Positions 10,384-19,944 of a stretch of 64,000 nt of DNA are shown piece by piece. Both the position numbers and the translations under genes were made by a program. The notes under the pieces were generated by a model. The model had not been told where the DNA came from. It did no database searches and worked only from the letters and a program-made list of their open reading frames with translations. The stretch's first letter is position 1. Each line of letters starts with the position of its first letter. The DNA is from Fulvivirga maritima (GTDB taxonomy: Bacteria > Bacteroidota > Bacteroidia > Cytophagales > Cyclobacteriaceae), in contig NZ_CP089980.1 in NCBI RefSeq assembly GCF_021389955.1, positions 1,611,501 to 1,675,500 on the forward strand. Direction: 5' to 3'.

Positions 10384-10458
10384 GGGCGCTTAGCTCAGCT
10401 GGTTCAGAGCATCTCGTTTACACCGAGGGGGTCGGGGGTTCGAATCCCTCAGCGCCCA
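10384..10458 (+). tRNA. tRNA-Val(UAC), copy 1
   Basis: 75-nt cloverleaf. Acceptor GGGCGCT/AGCGCCC, D arm GCTC/GAGC, anticodon stem TCTCG/CGAGG with loop TTTACAC giving anticodon TAC (10419-10421), T arm with TTCGAAT loop, discriminator A. CCA is not encoded. It reads valine codons ending in A/G. Identical to the copy at 10769. Confidence 0.97.
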
Positions 10459-10768: not shown

Positions 10769-10843
10769 GGGCGCTTAGCTCAGCTGGTTCAGAGCATCTC
10801 GTTTACACCGAGGGGGTCGGGGGTTCGAATCCCTCAGCGCCCA
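10769..10843 (+). tRNA. tRNA-Val(UAC), copy 2
   Basis: Sequence identical over all 75 nt to the tRNA at 10384, with the same anticodon TAC. It has its own promoter and terminator, so the two are separate transcription units 385 bases apart, not one tRNA operon. Confidence 0.97.
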
Positions 10844-13558: not shown

Positions 13559-14935
13559 ATGAACCGGCTGACCGCTAATATTTTAATTATTGATGACGAC
13601 CTAGATGTGCTGCACTCTGCCCGGATGGCATTAAAACCCATTTTCACTCAAATCACCGCAGAGAGTCAACCCCAGCAAATCAACTATCTACTCAATCAAA
13701 ACGTGTATGATGTCATTCTGCTAGACATGAACTATACCACAGGAGCTACCAGCGGCAGAGAAGGCCTCATGTGGCTTCAGAATATCATAGACAAAAAACC
13801 CACGCAGCAAGTAGTGATGATCACCGCTTATGGCGACATAAAGTTAGCTGTAGAAGCCATGAAAATAGGAGCTACCGATTTTGTGGTGAAACCCTGGGAT
13901 AATGAAAAGCTACAAGCCACCGTACGTGCGGCCTATCAGCTGAGCCAATCACAAAGAGAAGTGAAACAGCTACGAGAAAAGCAGTCAGGCATGAAAGCCC
14001 TTCTTAACCAACCCGGAGTAGAAATAATAGGACAATCACCTACCATGAAGGAGCTGTTTCGCATGACTGATAAAGTAGCCACCACAGATGCTAATGTTAT
14101 CATTTTTGGTGAAAATGGCACCGGAAAAGAGTTATTAGCTCAGTTTATCCACGAAAAATCAGAAAGGCGAGAAAATGTATTTGTAAAGGTAGATCTGGGC
14201 ACTATTAGCGAGAGTTTATTCGAATCAGAAATGTTTGGCCATACTAAAGGATCCTTTACAGATGCCAGGCAAGATAAAATTGGCCGGTTTGAATTAGCGC
14301 AAGGAGGCACCTTATTTCTTGATGAAATTGGCAACTTGTCTTTGCCGCTTCAAGCGAAACTACTAACAGCTATTCAGCACAAAACTATCACCAGAGTAGG
14401 CTCCACTACCCCCATAAGCATTGATTGCCGTATTATTTCCGCCACCAATAATAATCTTTTTGAAATGGTAGAGAAAGGCGAGTTTAGGGAAGACTTACTT
14501 TACAGACTCAATACCGTGGAACTCATGGTGCCAGCATTAGCCAAAAGGCCGGAAGACATTCCTTTACTAGCAGATCATTTTATTCAAATATTTGCAAATA
14601 AATACCGTAAAGGCGCCATGAAACTCAGCCGTAAGAGCTACGACTTACTGAGCAAGCATCTTTGGCCGGGTAATATCAGGGAGCTGCAACATGCCATGGA
14701 AAGAGCGGTAATCATGAGCGACGAGTCCACACTGCAGCCACACCATTTTTTACTACAAAGCTCCAAGCCCAAAGTCAGCCCTTCAAATTCAGTGAACTTA
14801 AATGAAATTGAAAAAGAAACCATAGAAATTGCTATTGCGAAACATCAGGGAAACATTTCCAAAGCAGCCAAAGAATTAGGCCTGGGACGCACCACCATTT
14901 ACAGAAAAATGGATAAGTATGGCATAAAGTATTAA
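13559..14935 (+). CDS. Sigma-54-dependent response regulator (NtrC type)
   Basis: 458 residues. Receiver domain with phospho-acceptor D56 (DVILLDMNY) and conserved K111; AAA+ domain with Walker A GENGTGKE (184-191) and Walker B TLFLDE (251-256); Fis-type helix-turn-helix at the C-terminus (ISKAAKELGLGRTTIYRKM). The sigma-54 contact loop reads GSFTDA (231-236) instead of the canonical GAFTGA; variants of this kind are common in Bacteroidota paralogues. The sensor kinase gene follows after 3 bases. It is divergent from the FtsX-type permease, a pairing seen often in this phylum, which suggests it controls that transporter in response to envelope or peptide stress (inference). Confidence 0.93.
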   Translation: MNRLTANILIIDDDLDVLHSARMALKPIFTQITAESQPQQINYLLNQNVYDVILLDMNYTTGATSGREGLMWLQNIIDKKPTQQVVMITAYGDIKLAVEAMKIGATDFVVKPWDNEKLQATVRAAYQLSQSQREVKQLREKQSGMKALLNQPGVEIIGQSPTMKELFRMTDKVATTDANVIIFGENGTGKELLAQFIHEKSERRENVFVKVDLGTISESLFESEMFGHTKGSFTDARQDKIGRFELAQGGTLFLDEIGNLSLPLQAKLLTAIQHKTITRVGSTTPISIDCRIISATNNNLFEMVEKGEFREDLLYRLNTVELMVPALAKRPEDIPLLADHFIQIFANKYRKGAMKLSRKSYDLLSKHLWPGNIRELQHAMERAVIMSDESTLQPHHFLLQSSKPKVSPSNSVNLNEIEKETIEIAIAKHQGNISKAAKELGLGRTTIYRKMDKYGIKY

Positions 14936-14938
14936 AAC

Positions 14939-16276
14939 ATGAATTTTAAAAACTTTAGAATTTTCGTAATTACAGCCGTAGCCCTTATAATAATTCTGGC
15001 CTTTGGCATAGCATACACAATCATTTATACAGAATGGATTTTCACACCGCTAGCATTAGCCATAATACTAATGGCCACAAGCATCTACCTGATAAGACAC
15101 ACCGAAAAAACGAATATTAAACTCACCCATTTTTTGCTTTCCATTAAGCAAGGAGGCTTTACCTCTACCTTTTCAAAAGGCAAAAGCAATCCGACTGACG
15201 CACAATTGAATTCTGCTTTAAATGATATTATTCAGGAATTTCAAAAAATCAATTTAGAAAAAGAAAGGCAATTTCAATACTTAAAAACCCTCAATGAAAA
15301 TATAGGAGTAGGGTTAATAAGTTATGCCGAAGATGGCAACATTGAAATGATAAACCCGGCAGCCAAAAGTTTATTACAAAAGCCCTTAATCAGAAGTATT
15401 AGTGACTTAAAAACCATTGACAGCAAGCTCCATGAAACCATCAGCCATTTAAAAGCGGAAGAAAAAAGAGTAATTAAAACTTATATAGGTCAGGAAACAC
15501 TGCAGCTCTCTGTGCAGCTCAAAGAGTTTATAATAGACCGCAAAAAGGTAAAGCTACTACTGATACAAAATTTGCTTTTTGAATTGGACCAAAAAGAAGT
15601 TGAAGCATGGCAAAAACTGATCAGTGTGCTTACTCATGAAATCATGAACTCTGTAACCCCAATTGCCTCACTTAACAGCTCAGTGAATCAATTGCTACAT
15701 CAGAATAACCAGCAGCAACTGTCACCAGATGACCGCGAAGACATTTATTGCAGCTTAGACACCATTGAAAAGAGAAGCAAAGGACTTATTAAATTCATTA
15801 ATGTATATAAAGATTTCTCTAAGACACCCGAGCTTACTTATAGCAGATTCAACCTGATCAGCATTGTCAATCGTCTACTACAGCTCCTGGCTCCTGATAT
15901 GGAAAAAGCGAAAGTGCAGCATGAGCTACATTGTTCTTCAACAGAAATAAAAATATGGGCAGATCAACAGCTCATAGAGCAGGTAATTATTAACCTACTA
16001 AAAAATGCTCTGGAAGCTGTAAAAGAAACTGAAAAGCCATTAATAAAAATAAATATAGAAGCCGCAATTAATAAAACCAGGATCAGCATAACTAATAATG
16101 GCCCCTGGATACCCGCCGAAGAGCTGGAAAAGATATTCATACCGTTCTATAGCACAAAAAAAGGAGGCTCTGGAATAGGTTTAAGCCTCGCCAAGCAAAT
16201 TATGAAATTGCATCGAGGCAATATACAAGCCTACTCTACAGAGAATGGAAACTCCACCTTCACTCTCACCTTTTAA
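14939..16276 (+). CDS. Membrane sensor histidine kinase
   Basis: 445 residues. Two membrane helices (about 9-27 and 34-53) with almost no periplasmic loop, a PAS-like segment (about 115-215), an H-box with H233 (VLTHEIMNS), N-box (VIINLLKNALEAV) and G-boxes (ITNNGPWIP; GGSGIGLSLAKQIM). The tight double helix with no sensor loop suggests sensing inside the membrane or cytoplasm. It is the partner of the sigma-54 regulator 3 bases upstream. It ends before a long gene-free stretch. Confidence 0.93.
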   Translation: MNFKNFRIFVITAVALIIILAFGIAYTIIYTEWIFTPLALAIILMATSIYLIRHTEKTNIKLTHFLLSIKQGGFTSTFSKGKSNPTDAQLNSALNDIIQEFQKINLEKERQFQYLKTLNENIGVGLISYAEDGNIEMINPAAKSLLQKPLIRSISDLKTIDSKLHETISHLKAEEKRVIKTYIGQETLQLSVQLKEFIIDRKKVKLLLIQNLLFELDQKEVEAWQKLISVLTHEIMNSVTPIASLNSSVNQLLHQNNQQQLSPDDREDIYCSLDTIEKRSKGLIKFINVYKDFSKTPELTYSRFNLISIVNRLLQLLAPDMEKAKVQHELHCSSTEIKIWADQQLIEQVIINLLKNALEAVKETEKPLIKINIEAAINKTRISITNNGPWIPAEELEKIFIPFYSTKKGGSGIGLSLAKQIMKLHRGNIQAYSTENGNSTFTLTF

Positions 16277-16320
16277 CTAATTGAATATTACCATAAAATC
16301 CATACAAATGTTAATAACTA

Positions 16321-16394
16321 TGTGATTATCAATATAAATATGTGGATAAACTTGTGATTATAGATATAAATAAAGGTGGAAAAGTTGTGAATAA
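16321..16394 (+). other. Cluster of DnaA-box-like sites, candidate replication-origin element
   Basis: Five sites in one orientation: TGTGATTAT (16321), TGTGGATAA (16341, exact reverse complement of the consensus TTATCCACA), TGTGATTAT (16353), GGTGGAAAA (16375) and TGTGAATAA (16386, one mismatch). Spacings of 20, 12, 22 and 11 bases keep them nearly on one helix face. AT-rich sequence lies on the upstream side (16277-16320). No dnaA, dnaN or parAB is nearby, so origin function is uncertain; a DnaA-titration or regulatory site is the alternative. Confidence 0.4.
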
Positions 16395-16413
16395 TACAAC
16401 TTAATGAAATTTG
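16385..16413 (+). promoter_or_regulatory. Promoter of the candidate structured RNA
   Basis: TTG (16385-16387), 18-base spacer, GAAATTTG (16406-16413), one mismatch from TAnnTTTG. The -33 triplet lies inside the last DnaA-like box, so DnaA binding could affect this promoter. Confidence 0.45.
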
Positions 16414-16419
16414 GACTGC

Positions 16420-16870
16420 AAAGATATTATTACGACCTTAGATATACCAAGTAAGAGATAAGCTTGACTGCTACAAAAGAGTAGCGGATGAGTAATGTGG
16501 ACTTGCTAAATATTTACACAAAGGGTTAAGGTACATACTGATAGCCTGAAAAGACTAAAGTCACCAGTTGAAAATATTTAATAGAACTGTCTGAAGCACT
16601 ATCTAGTATAGAAATTCAGATTTTCGCAGAATGGTTAAAGGAGTCAGGACGCAATGTTTATGACTTGAAATAACTAAAGTTACAGAAAGCATTTTGTGAG
16701 AGTATGGCGCAAGCTGTATAGTTTGAGAGAACACAAGAAAGTTAGATTCAGTACCATTCCATCGTGGGTGGCTCGCTGATGAAGCTAAGTGAACAGTAGC
16801 TTGGCACAAGCACCTCTACGGAGGCACTTGTGAAATGGGAATTCTTGAAAAAAGGGTTCCCATTTTTGTT
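16420..16870 (+). ncRNA. Candidate structured non-coding RNA, about 450 nt, family not recognised
   Basis: This gene-free stretch has a promoter-like site before it and a strong terminator at its end, and no credible ORF on either strand. Local stems are frequent: GCTAC/GTAGC (16470/16481), GACT/AGTC (16553-16562), CAGTT/AACTG (16565/16585), TCTGAA/TTCAGA (16590/16615), AGTCA/TGACT (16642/16661), TAAC-TAAA-GTTA (16671-16682), AAGCTA/TAGCTT (16782/16797), and CACAAG/CTTGTG enclosing CCTC/GAGG with a TACG tetraloop (16805-16832). Two stems carry the same TAAA loop with changed pairs. Signatures of RNase P RNA, tmRNA and SRP RNA were looked for and not found; a degenerate group II intron is possible but no domain V is visible. 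Function unknown. Confidence 0.5.
16833..16870 (+). terminator. Intrinsic terminator ending the candidate RNA
   Basis: AAATGGGAA (16833-16841) pairs perfectly with TTCCCATTT (16857-16865) and is followed by a T-rich tract. It precedes ispH and insulates it. Confidence 0.85.
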
Positions 16871-16932
16871 TTACTCTCACCCTCCTCGCTTGCCACACAA
16901 TCTGCTGAATTTCTCTATGTTATTGTTTACTT

Positions 16933-18186
16933 TTGCAGCGAGCACAACAAAAGGACAGTACTATCAAAAAATTCGATATACCCGAGTATTATAAATCTTC
17001 CATAACAGGCAGAATAAAGGAAGCACGCAGAATTCTTGATCCGCGCAAAAAGGATTTCACCCCCACCGAACTAGATTTCGGACCGGTTAAATTTTACATT
17101 GCCCGGCATTTTGGCTTTTGCTATGGTGTAGAAAATGCCATTGAAAAAAGCTACAAAGCGCTAGAAGATAATCCCGATAAAAAGGTATACCTGCTTAGCC
17201 AGATGATTCATAATCAGGAAGTTAACAGAGACTTACAATCAAAGGGTATAGAATTTATTATGGATACTGATGGTACACAGTTTATTCCGTGGGAAAACCT
17301 TAAGCCTGAAGATATTGTGATCATACCTGCTTTTGGCACCACATTGGAGATAGAGCAAAAGCTTGAAAATATTGGTATAGAAATACAGAAATACAATACT
17401 ACTTGTCCTTTTGTAGAGAAAGTATGGAAACGATCTGCCAAGTTGGGAGAGGAACAGCATACTATAATTATTCATGGCAAGCACAACCATGAAGAGACCA
17501 GAGCTACTTTTTCGCATAGTGCAGAAAAAGCACCCGCTGTAATTGTTAAAAACCTGAAAGAAGCAGAGTTACTGGGAGAAGTGATAAAGGGTAAGATCAG
17601 CAAAAATGAATTTTATGAGCTCTTCAAAGGCAAATATTCTGATGGCTTTGATCCTGAAATTCATTTTAACAAGGTGGGAGTGGTAAACCAAACCACCATG
17701 CTCGCTACAGAAACTCAGGAAATAGCCGATTACATTAAAAATGTAATTATAGAATTGTACCCTGAAGATCATAAAGAGCATTTCGCAGACACCAGAGACA
17801 CGCTCTGCTACGCTACTAATGATAATCAGGATGCTACCTATGGCCTGCTAGAGCAAGAGGCTGACCTGGCACTCATTGTAGGTGGATACAACAGTTCGAA
17901 CACCTCGCATATAGTAGAGCTATGCGAAAGGAAATTCCCTTCTTACTTTATCAATTCGGCCAATGAAATAATATCTCGCCAAGAGATTAATCATTTTGAT
18001 TATAAGAACAAAAAGGAACTTAGAACACAGGCCTGGCTACCCGAAAATGAACCGCTGAAAATAGTGCTCACCAGCGGAGCCTCATGCCCCGACACGTTGG
18101 TAGACGAAGTAATGCTTAAGGTATTATCCTTTTTTGAAAACACTATGACCGTAGAAGCTTTATTAGCAAAATTTGAAGTAGAATAA
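16933..18186 (+). CDS. ispH: 4-hydroxy-3-methylbut-2-enyl diphosphate reductase
   Basis: Last step of the MEP isoprenoid pathway: a [4Fe-4S] enzyme making IPP and DMAPP. The three cluster ligands are visible: C63 (HFGFCYGVENA), C158 (NTTCPFVEKV) and C385 (GASCPDTLVDE). The long Bacteroidota form (about 410 residues) carries an insert after residue 185. The start is uncertain: the first canonical codon, TTG at 16933, lies inside a promoter-like TACTTTTG (16928-16935). The conserved part begins IKKFDIPEYY, and an ATC at 16963 sits at a good distance from AAAAGGA; no ATG/GTG/TTG exists in frame after 16933. The TTG is used here only as the outer limit. Confidence 0.93.
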   Translation: MQRAQQKDSTIKKFDIPEYYKSSITGRIKEARRILDPRKKDFTPTELDFGPVKFYIARHFGFCYGVENAIEKSYKALEDNPDKKVYLLSQMIHNQEVNRDLQSKGIEFIMDTDGTQFIPWENLKPEDIVIIPAFGTTLEIEQKLENIGIEIQKYNTTCPFVEKVWKRSAKLGEEQHTIIIHGKHNHEETRATFSHSAEKAPAVIVKNLKEAELLGEVIKGKISKNEFYELFKGKYSDGFDPEIHFNKVGVVNQTTMLATETQEIADYIKNVIIELYPEDHKEHFADTRDTLCYATNDNQDATYGLLEQEADLALIVGGYNSSNTSHIVELCERKFPSYFINSANEIISRQEINHFDYKNKKELRTQAWLPENEPLKIVLTSGASCPDTLVDEVMLKVLSFFENTMTVEALLAKFEVE

Positions 18187-18247
18187 CCATACACTTCTTA
18201 GGCTGTTAAATTAAGGCATACTTACAAATACTGAGATCTTAGTGCCC

Positions 18248-18982
18248 ATGATTACAGCATATAAACGCTTATTACTTGAATTAGGAAGACATAAGTCGGA
18301 ATACATACTTTTTATTACCTCACTGATTATTCCGGCAATTATCTGCCTGCTTTCATTAGATGCCTTTCTGGAAATTACAGAAAGAATGAAAGCCGATGAA
18401 CTCCTTCACTTCGATAATAACGTGACTAACTTTGTATTTCAATACCGAGCTGACACCACTACCCAGTGGGTCACTTTTATTACTAACCTGGGCGATGCGT
18501 GGGCCTACTCTATTATAATACCTATCATAGCCGCTTTACTTTATTACCGTGGACATAGATGGAAAGTATCCATTCAGGCCTCTCTGGTGCTAGCCACAGC
18601 ATTTTTGCTCAATATCACCATTAAGCACTTGTTAGGGCGCCCGAGACCCTTGGAAGCCGTCCGCTTAGTCACTGCACATTCTTACAGCTTCCCTAGCGGA
18701 CATAGCATGAGCGCTATGGCCTTTTATGGCTTTCTGGTTTACCTCACTTACAAATACATCCCCAATTTATGGGTTAAAATCCTGCTTATTACTGTAGAAT
18801 TATCGCTTATCATTCTCATAGGACTGAGTAGGGTATATCTGGGCGTACACTATCCTAGTGATGTACTGGCCGGATTTATTGCTGGGTTATTCTGGCTGAT
18901 TATCTGCATAGTAGTATTTAAGTTTATCAACTTTTACAGACAGCAGCGCGCTAAAAAGCTGGCTCAGGAAAATAAAGCGTAA
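18248..18982 (+). CDS. PAP2-family membrane phosphatase
   Basis: 244 residues from the ATG at 18248; a GTG two codons earlier is also possible. The three phosphatase signatures are all there: KHLLGRPRP, PSGHSMSAM and SRVYLGVHYPSDVLAG, with the catalytic histidines in the second and third. Five or six membrane helices surround them. Relatives dephosphorylate undecaprenyl pyrophosphate, phosphatidate or phosphatidylglycerophosphate at the outer face of the inner membrane; the substrate cannot be told from sequence. It meets the exchanger gene tail to tail 2 bases away. Confidence 0.92.
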   Translation: MITAYKRLLLELGRHKSEYILFITSLIIPAIICLLSLDAFLEITERMKADELLHFDNNVTNFVFQYRADTTTQWVTFITNLGDAWAYSIIIPIIAALLYYRGHRWKVSIQASLVLATAFLLNITIKHLLGRPRPLEAVRLVTAHSYSFPSGHSMSAMAFYGFLVYLTYKYIPNLWVKILLITVELSLIILIGLSRVYLGVHYPSDVLAGFIAGLFWLIICIVVFKFINFYRQQRAKKLAQENKA

Positions 18983-18984
18983 AG

Positions 18985-19944
18985 TTAACCTCTTTGCAAA
19001 AGGAAGGTGATATACCAGGCATAAGCAATAAGAAAGAAAAAACCTTCCCACCGGCTAATAACCGGCTTTTTACCAATTACCACGGCCAGGATAAGCAGCG
19101 TACTGGAAGCTATGATCATAAAAATATCTGCATTGCTGATCACATCATAAGGAATAGGCTTAATAGAGGCGCTCACACCGAGTATCCAGAGTAAGTTAAA
19201 AATATTGGACCCCACCACATTACCCACGGCTATATCAGTATTTTTCTTAAAAGCCGCCATAGCCGAAGTAACTAATTCGGGCAGTGAAGTTCCTAAAGCA
19301 ATAATAGTAAGACCAATAAAGCCTTCGCTCATATGAAAAGCACGGGCAATGGTTACTGCACCATCTACCACCCAAATACCTCCAAAGTAAAGACCCACTA
19401 TACCTATGACTATAAATATTACCGATTTGGTTATAGGCATTTGCTTAAACTCATCGGAATTAAATTCAGTTCTTTTCTGCTTAGAGACTATATACACATA
19501 GCCCATAAAAAGCACAAAAAAGAACAGCAAGATAAAGCCATCATACTGACTGATAATGAAGTCATTAGTTTTACCAAAGAAAGAGGCATTTGCCAAAAAG
19601 CCTACCAACAGTGTAGCGGTTAATGAAAATGGAACTTCTATGAAATAGGTGTTTTTAGTGATTGGCAATGGGTTAATGATAGCCGCCACACCTAAAATAA
19701 GTAAGATGTTAGCGATGTTGCTACCCAAAACATTCCCCACCCCTATATCAGGATTATCGTTATAACTGGCAATAAGGTTAACCAGTAACTCAGGCAAGGA
19801 CGTGCCAAAAGACACTATAGTAAGCCCTATGACTATACTGGAAATGTTCAGCCTTCTTCCTATAGAAGTAGCTCCCTCCACCAGTAAATCGGCCCCTTTA
19901 ATTAAGAAAACAAATCCAACTATAAATAATATATAAACCTGCAT
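18985..19944 (-). CDS. Sodium/calcium exchanger family protein (CaCA, YrbG type)
   Basis: 319 residues from the ATG at 19944; a TTG at 19986 would add 14 polar residues before the first helix and is less likely. About ten membrane helices in two inverted repeats, each with the alpha-repeat motif: FGTSLPELLVNL with GNVLGSNIANILLILG in the first, ALGTSLPELVTS with GNVVGSNIFNLLWILG in the second. These bind the cation. The protein should exchange Ca2+ (or K+) for Na+ or H+ across the inner membrane; the ion preference is not known. Confidence 0.92.
   Translation of the reverse strand: MQVYILFIVGFVFLIKGADLLVEGATSIGRRLNISSIVIGLTIVSFGTSLPELLVNLIASYNDNPDIGVGNVLGSNIANILLILGVAAIINPLPITKNTYFIEVPFSLTATLLVGFLANASFFGKTNDFIISQYDGFILLFFFVLFMGYVYIVSKQKRTEFNSDEFKQMPITKSVIFIVIGIVGLYFGGIWVVDGAVTIARAFHMSEGFIGLTIIALGTSLPELVTSAMAAFKKNTDIAVGNVVGSNIFNLLWILGVSASIKPIPYDVISNADIFMIIASSTLLILAVVIGKKPVISRWEGFFFLIAYAWYITFLLQRG

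Follow-up and report, generated by a model that had tools for sequence, protein, structure and literature searches.

A widespread and apparently undescribed family of structured RNAs in Bacteroidota, represented by a predicted two-unit RNA gene next to ispH in Fulvivirga maritima

The window, by which we mean the whole stretch of 64,000 nucleotides of Fulvivirga maritima DNA that was analyzed, contains an intergenic region (16277-16932) between a histidine-kinase gene (14939-16276) and ispH (16933-18186). Judged from its sequence, the segment 16418-16870 of this region encodes a member of a widespread and apparently undescribed RNA family of Bacteroidota. The original prediction had described the stretch as gene-free, which was borne out by the lack of any sense open reading frame of at least 30 amino acids within 16418-16830; the longest sense frame inside the RNA comprises 27 codons. 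The features of the locus, all on the + strand, are as follows.

16309-16317, +: DnaA-box-like 9-mer TGTTAATAA, degenerate
16321-16329, +: DnaA-box-like 9-mer TGTGATTAT, degenerate
16341-16349, +: DnaA-box-like 9-mer TGTGGATAA, exact consensus and the sole exact box in the row of the window
16353-16361, +: DnaA-box-like 9-mer TGTGATTAT, degenerate
16375-16383, +: DnaA-box-like 9-mer GGTGGAAAA, degenerate
16386-16394, +: DnaA-box-like 9-mer TGTGAATAA, degenerate
TTG at 16385-16387 and TTTG at 16410-16413, +: promoter-like elements of the Bacteroidota type, recognized by sequence
16418-16870, +: RNA gene, two-unit member of the family, ends approximate (homologues, fold z of -4.1, covariation)
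16435-16461, +: most conserved 5′ block, ACCTTAGATATACCAAGTAAGAGATAA (three alignments of family members)
16447-16452, +: 5′ strand of the closing helix P1, CCAAGT, pairing with 16799-16804
16470-16485, +: hairpin P2, GCTAC-AAAAGA-GTAGC (two-sided changes in 3 of 5 pairs)
16524-16563, +: unit 1 module, with stem 16524-16528/16542-16546, UGAAA linker and TAAA-capped stem 16552-16555/16560-16563 (two-sided changes in 8 of 9 pairs; 9 of 10 pairs predicted in a 44-sequence alignment)
16589-16621, +: inter-unit hairpin, stem 16589-16595/16615-16621 (two-sided changes in 5 of 7 pairs, 84% of cells paired)
16641-16682, +: unit 2 module, with stem 16641-16646/16661-16666, UGAAA linker and TAAA-capped stem 16671-16674/16679-16682 (two-sided changes in 9 of 10 pairs)
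16748-16779, +: hairpin P6, stem 16748-16751/16776-16779 (two-sided changes in 4 of 4 pairs)
16799-16804, +: 3′ strand of P1, GCTTGG, within the conserved 3′ core AACAGTAGCTTGGC, pairing with 16447-16452
16805-16832, +: hairpin P7 with a C(UACG)G cap (compact-class counterpart with two-sided changes in 13 of 14 pairs)
16832-16870, +: intrinsic terminator, stem and T run (helix counted as 100% paired in 15 sequences)

The promoter-like arrangement TTG (16385-16387)-N18-GAAATTTG (16406-16413), which had been predicted to flank the stretch at one end, is present as claimed, and a similar layout recurs in relatives, as judged by eye. The label follows what we take to be the Bacteroidota promoter consensus; a generic sigma-70 scan of 16200-17100 gave no excess of sites (3 versus 3.1 expected). 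The terminator postulated at the other end was found at 16832-16866 on the + strand as a stem of 15 pairs with a T run after it. Elsewhere in the window, two tRNA genes (10384-10458 and 10769-10843) with the same covariance score (66.4 bits) lie about 310 bp apart and probably represent a duplication.

The RNA had been assigned to no recognized family, and the check named for this claim upheld it: Rfam 15 gave no match at E ≤ 10 in 16250-16940 and none at E ≤ 1 in 14000-19000. Neither 6S model (RF00013; RF01685, 6S-Flavo) matched the locus at E ≤ 10. At 11 other member loci, nothing was detected over the RNA at E ≤ 1 except for one overlap with Termite-leu at the 3′ end of locus L122, which was taken as chance (24.3 bits compared to a cut-off of 51; E of 0.28). 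The reported absence of rnpB and ssrA signatures also held. The only rnpB match of the window's genome (G000) lies at 6,109,368 (266 bits), and the single ssrA match over the cut-off lies at 2,726,655 (114 bits), with nine weaker matches, none of them at the RNA. Among the matches listed in a search of the open-licence literature, the portions of text available contained no description of this RNA.

Energy folding of the + strand yielded -122 kcal/mol, compared to -101.3 ± 5.0 kcal/mol for shuffled sequences (z of -4.1; none of 100 shuffles was as good), and the - strand folded barely better than its shuffles (z of -1.7; 6 of 100). Covariation was evaluated in two alignments. Of the 864 cells in the window-type alignment (15 sequences, 58 pairs), 89.1% were standard pairs (shuffles, 75.8 ± 0.8) and two-sided changes occurred in 42 of the 58 pairs (shuffles, 26.7 ± 2.5), values that none of 500 shuffles reached. 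For the compact class (55 pairs in 19 sequences), pairing reached 89.4% of 1038 cells (shuffles, 76.8 ± 0.7) and 39 of the 55 pairs had two-sided changes (shuffles, 24.5 ± 2.8; above all 500). The shuffle figures of both alignments are not probabilities, because the structures were drawn from the tested sequences and the sequences are related. Sliding the alignments out of register left 30 to 42% (window type) and 29 to 47% (compact class) of the cells paired, a comparison in which definition on the same sequences favors the tested structures. By these measures, nearly every helix shows compensatory pairing.

At least eight local stems had been predicted, and ten helices including the terminator (11 segments) could be tested for covariation. 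The two stems with TAAA loops and compensating pairs that had been pointed out (16552-16563 and 16671-16682) both covaried. The double stem capped by TACG (16805-16832) was supported in its outer part, but its inner part is weak, with 58% of cells paired and gaps in the window-type alignment. This inner part of P7 and lower P6 in the compact class (68% paired) were the weakest parts of the two structures.

Three features are absent from the original prediction, namely, the long-range helix P1, the repeated unit and the row of boxes upstream. In P1, a 5′ YCAAGY sequence pairs with a 3′ RCUUGR sequence just ahead of the last hairpins and thereby closes the molecule. A scripted search of 57 distinct copies found 6 of 6 pairs in 51 and at least 5 of 6 in 56; the 5′ pattern fixes CAA and the 3′ anchor lies outside the helix, so this test rests on the 3′ strand and the variable ends. 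The single failure, L044, for which the script had picked an incorrect site downstream, was kept in the count, and L041 and L181, both covarying by eye, were missed by the script. Variants include CCAAG/CUUGG, UCAAG/CUUGA, CCAAA/UUUGG, UCAAA/UUUGA and ACAAG/CUUGU. P1 was not formed by energy folding of the window sequence alone, in which a local AGCUA/UAGCU hairpin was preferred, and was recovered by RNAalifold on the compact class. A second long-range pairing, of a 5′ CCUUAG with CUAAGG before P6, was rejected; it is perfect in some members, is paired to 64% over the compact alignment and ranked fifth of 272 windows.

The architecture of the family comprises a conserved 5′ block and a 3′ core joined by P1, a 3′ hairpin that is often UACG-capped and an intrinsic terminator. 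The interior of countable members consists of one, two (as in the window) or four units, in each of which a UGARA linker joins a stem to a capped stem. The distance from the 5′ block to the 3′ core was 214 to 248 nt in 22 compact loci, 177 nt in L154, 319 nt in L101, 355 to 396 nt in 17 window-type loci and 534 to 541 nt in 8 four-unit loci; in this survey, L106/L116 were measured to the 3′ core of their second copy, and one end pattern, 5′ or 3′, gave no match in L041, L098 and L110. Roseivirga members measured 381 to 592 nt, without a clear module count by pattern search. The UGARA modules of the four-unit form lie at about +106, +214, +325 and +427; five of the eight loci have all four, and the pattern was found at three of the four places in L130, L136 and L140. 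One genus (g103) holds all three forms, with one unit in L054 and L055, two in L101 (second unit read by eye) and four in L126, L130 and L140. Each unit adds about 100 to 107 nt in this genus and about 140 nt in window-type members; in the window, the TAAA-capped stems of units 1 and 2 are spaced by 119 nt, and models of the first 150 nt match unit 2 as well. The family spans about 330 to 700 nt, with compact members at about 330 nt.

A DNA search gave matches in 14 of 58 genomes, including the window's own, and 13 of these belong to Fulvivirga (the matches in G003 and G028 and the second one in G008 were judged by eye to be chance; the true G003 copy lies elsewhere). With a covariance model built on the 5′ domain (E ≤ 0.01), matches were obtained in 46 of 295 genomes of the window's taxonomic family, including 14 of 15 of Fulvivirga (all but G006, whose copy has no 5′ domain); this is a raw tally, in which reading of the matches by eye showed one of two in G192 (L109) to be coding, and the 249 genomes without a match partly reflect limited sensitivity of the model. 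With a broader model (E ≤ 0.001), 57 of 390 genomes sampled from the order gave a match; 43 of these belong to the window's family and the other 14 do not. This is again a raw tally, and the 43 (family f1) were read in part. In family f8, the six of eight genomes that were read (all except G422 and G456) had true members, complete with both conserved ends (5′ block and 3′ core), the capped hairpin and the terminator. In six genomes of other families (G394, G452, G459, G469, G472 and G481), the 3′ core is missing, and these matches were regarded as false.

In a sample of the class (E ≤ 1e-4), 10 of 395 genomes matched, five of them outside the window's family. Both conserved ends were present in G670 (f31), G717 (f44) and G618 and G933 (both f23), and the 5′ block alone was present in G663 (f68). 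The full architecture was seen by eye in five of nine genomes of the order of G670; one of 13 genomes in the family of G933, G933 itself, matched. A phylum-wide draw (E ≤ 0.001) gave 11 matches in 395 genomes, none convincing outside Bacteroidia; five in f102, f114 and f115 and one in f1 (G031) were judged false. Named carriers include Fulvivirga lutimaris, F. imtechensis, Roseivirga pacifica, R. thermotolerans, R. ehrenbergii and an Algoriphagus MAG; 3 of 24 named matches (Proteus, Alkalibacterium and Aquimarina) were set aside as chance, with about four expected by a rough estimate. Conservation in relatives, on which the original prediction was to be judged, was found across Fulvivirga, Roseivirga, Algoriphagus and other genera and in other families of Bacteroidia. 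Its proposal of a large functional RNA is supported by conservation, compensatory pairing and the lack of an Rfam match, and we regard it as nearly certain that the RNA family is real and absent from Rfam.

Several genomes carry more than one copy. Tandem copies 0.7 to 1.5 kb apart were found at L180, L182 and L184 (f8, genomes of about 1.2 to 1.6 Mb) and at L045, L053 and L106; the three f8 genomes have two copies about 1.5 kb apart, with TGTTGA-type boxes upstream. Second compact copies occur in Roseivirga (L195 and L196) and in two other genomes (L193 and L197). Upstream of L195 and L196, GATGAC/GTCATC-like inverted repeats take the place of DnaA boxes, which suggests a paralogue that may be under other control. 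Tandem and dispersed second copies could also indicate a degenerate mobile element, a group II intron fragment or an omega-type guide RNA. We consider the chance of this to be negligible: Rfam gave no match, the window member has no plasmid match, the sole pattern match on a viral contig resembles coding sequence by eye, and P1 and the two conserved ends persist from family to family. One Fulvivirga genome (G006) retains a degraded copy without the 5′ domain (L004) beside an ispH whose protein is 94% identical to that of the window, probably owing to a recent loss. Because this degraded copy alone remains there, the RNA is dispensable in that genome.

In the window, in most window-type members and in a few other genomes, the RNA immediately precedes ispH, which would fit an ispH leader or riboswitch acting in cis. 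Such a leader would always lie upstream of ispH and be cotranscribed with it, but a strong terminator intervenes, 66 bp ahead of the ispH open reading frame, genes other than ispH follow the RNA in Roseivirga and other genera, ispH lies upstream of the RNA in L042, and some genomes have the tandem or second copies described above. We therefore view a leader function as very improbable. Because the neighbors differ in other genera, the RNA is an independent gene rather than an ispH leader, and it is very likely that it acts in trans.

The row of boxes at 16309-16394 (+ strand) has all its members in one orientation. Our survey covered 160 nt of upstream sequence for each of 46 members, which all come from the window's family (f1) and include close relatives. 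Exact TGTGGATAA had 31 occurrences on the strand of the RNA and a single one on the opposite strand (shuffle mean, 0.1), and with up to one mismatch the counts were 93 and 1 (shuffle mean, 3.2; maximum, 8). At this level, 44 of the 46 regions had at least one box, 32 at least two and 14 at least three. The most common spacing was 12 bp, followed by 11 bp (up to two mismatches). Among control promoters of the window's genome, searched with two mismatches, that of rnpB had no box and that of ssrA had one. A 12-bp tandem pair was found 42 times in 20 genomes, 27 times at the RNA promoter (counted from the table), compared to three matches for the reversed control. The pair was exclusive to the RNA in 8 of the 20 genomes (G092, G240, G304, G308, G312, G025, G163 and G165) and occurred both there and elsewhere in five; it was present elsewhere in 12 overall, and in seven genomes (six Fulvivirga and G152) no such pair was detected at the RNA.

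We infer from the box sequence that the row binds DnaA. Members of f31, however, have TGTTCATAA-like repeats in place of the DnaA-like boxes, and no row is visible in the 100 nt examined upstream of the paralogues L193, L195, L196 and L197 (both by eye). Judged by a box row at the promoter, the RNA would thus count as a DnaA-controlled gene in f1 but not in f31 or for the four paralogues. Because the repeat of f31 is a variant and the upstream sequence of the four paralogues differs, the factor may not be DnaA. Overall, we consider the odds for and against DnaA control of the RNA promoter to be even.

Four exact TGTGGATAA boxes cluster at 1,778,240-1,778,803 of the window's genome (L086), apparently in an intergenic region near the GC-skew switch, and this cluster is the probable oriC. 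A location of the RNA at oriC was rejected, as the skew minimum lies near 1.74 Mb (1.52 to 1.98 Mb examined), the box cluster at the coordinates given and the RNA at 1,627,918. DnaA-titrating sites such as datA and DARS are known, and the row itself could be the selected element, a site of this kind to which transcription of the RNA is secondary. The density and directionality of the row, the uniqueness of the tandem pair in 8 of 20 genomes and the distance of the RNA from the oriC-like cluster (about 150 kb in the window's genome; 167 kb in G004) are consistent with this reading. It is nevertheless improbable in view of the extensive compensatory evolution within the RNA, the paralogues that keep the RNA without the row and the window member with only one exact box.

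The explanation that we favor, and regard as somewhat better than even, is an RNA of several units that acts in trans as a protein scaffold or sponge and is tuned by DnaA; this hypothesis was fitted to the anatomy. The RNA would act in trans, and the UGARA hairpin of each unit would bind one copy of a protein. With one protein site per unit, the number of units would set the valency, in the manner of the GGA hairpins of CsrB-type RNAs. Protein binding by multiple units has, in our estimation, slightly less than an even chance. DnaA, probably as a cooperative oligomer of its ATP form on the 11- to 12-bp row, would repress or activate the promoter and so might couple the amount of RNA to the initiation of replication or to growth rate. 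A bolder version, which we put forward as tentative and rather doubtful, is a new RNA class that grows by protein-docking units of about 100 to 140 nt, with a promoter that serves as a DnaA oligomerization array and doses an RNA-protein particle by the replication-initiation cycle in several families of Bacteroidia.

Judged against Rfam 15 and the literature searched, the novelty lies in an RNA class defined by sequence and architecture. Large new bacterial RNA classes are rare, and several, such as OLE, have no known biochemical function. Natural one-, two- and four-unit versions exist in one genus, and therefore the role of the unit is directly testable. The promoter row suggests a tie to DnaA and hence to the control of replication or growth in Bacteroidota.

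Among known systems, the CsrB-type RNAs bind protein through GGA hairpins and contain several copies of this motif in variable number. In the RNA family, as in the CsrB/RsmZ sponges, a hairpin motif is repeated a variable number of times, but the repeat is a UGARA-hairpin-CAGAA unit and apparently not a GGA loop, and the family differs further in its closure by P1, its conserved 5′ and 3′ cores and the lack of an Rfam match. OLE, ROOL and GOLLD are, in the parts of the sources available, likewise large and ornate, with functions that are structural or not established, and the accessible part of one report describes all three as forming homo-oligomers (PMC12286853). An RNA-only architecture of this sort would fold without a partner and might be a homo-oligomer or a ribozyme, with the units serving self-assembly instead of the binding of protein. 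The closure by a long-range helix, the conserved unpaired bases of both cores and the GNRA-like caps that compact members show by eye (GNAA for the module and GYAA for P6) speak for it, as do the known homo-oligomers. We hold it to be unlikely, as compact members are only about 330 nt, the number of units differs among close relatives, which a fixed cage would hardly tolerate, and no match to OLE, ROOL or GOLLD was obtained as far as Rfam 15 holds them. The family is also shorter than these RNAs, and its length grows by added units. CcnA of Caulobacter, as far as the accessible text describes it, is a 182-nt RNA encoded at the origin with weak DnaA boxes in its gene and presumably activated by CtrA (PMC8959179). 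CcnA and the family are both noncoding RNA genes tied to DnaA boxes, and CcnA is tied to the cell cycle as well; according to that description, rather than by sequence comparison, CcnA is set apart by its smaller size, its location at the origin and its boxes inside the gene. 6S RNA, a further structured noncoding RNA, is a single long bulged hairpin of about 190 nt. A 6S-flavo RNA is known in Bacteroidetes, according to the part of the source available (PMC2864571). The RNA family differs from 6S RNA in being multi-branched and about 330 to 700 nt in length.
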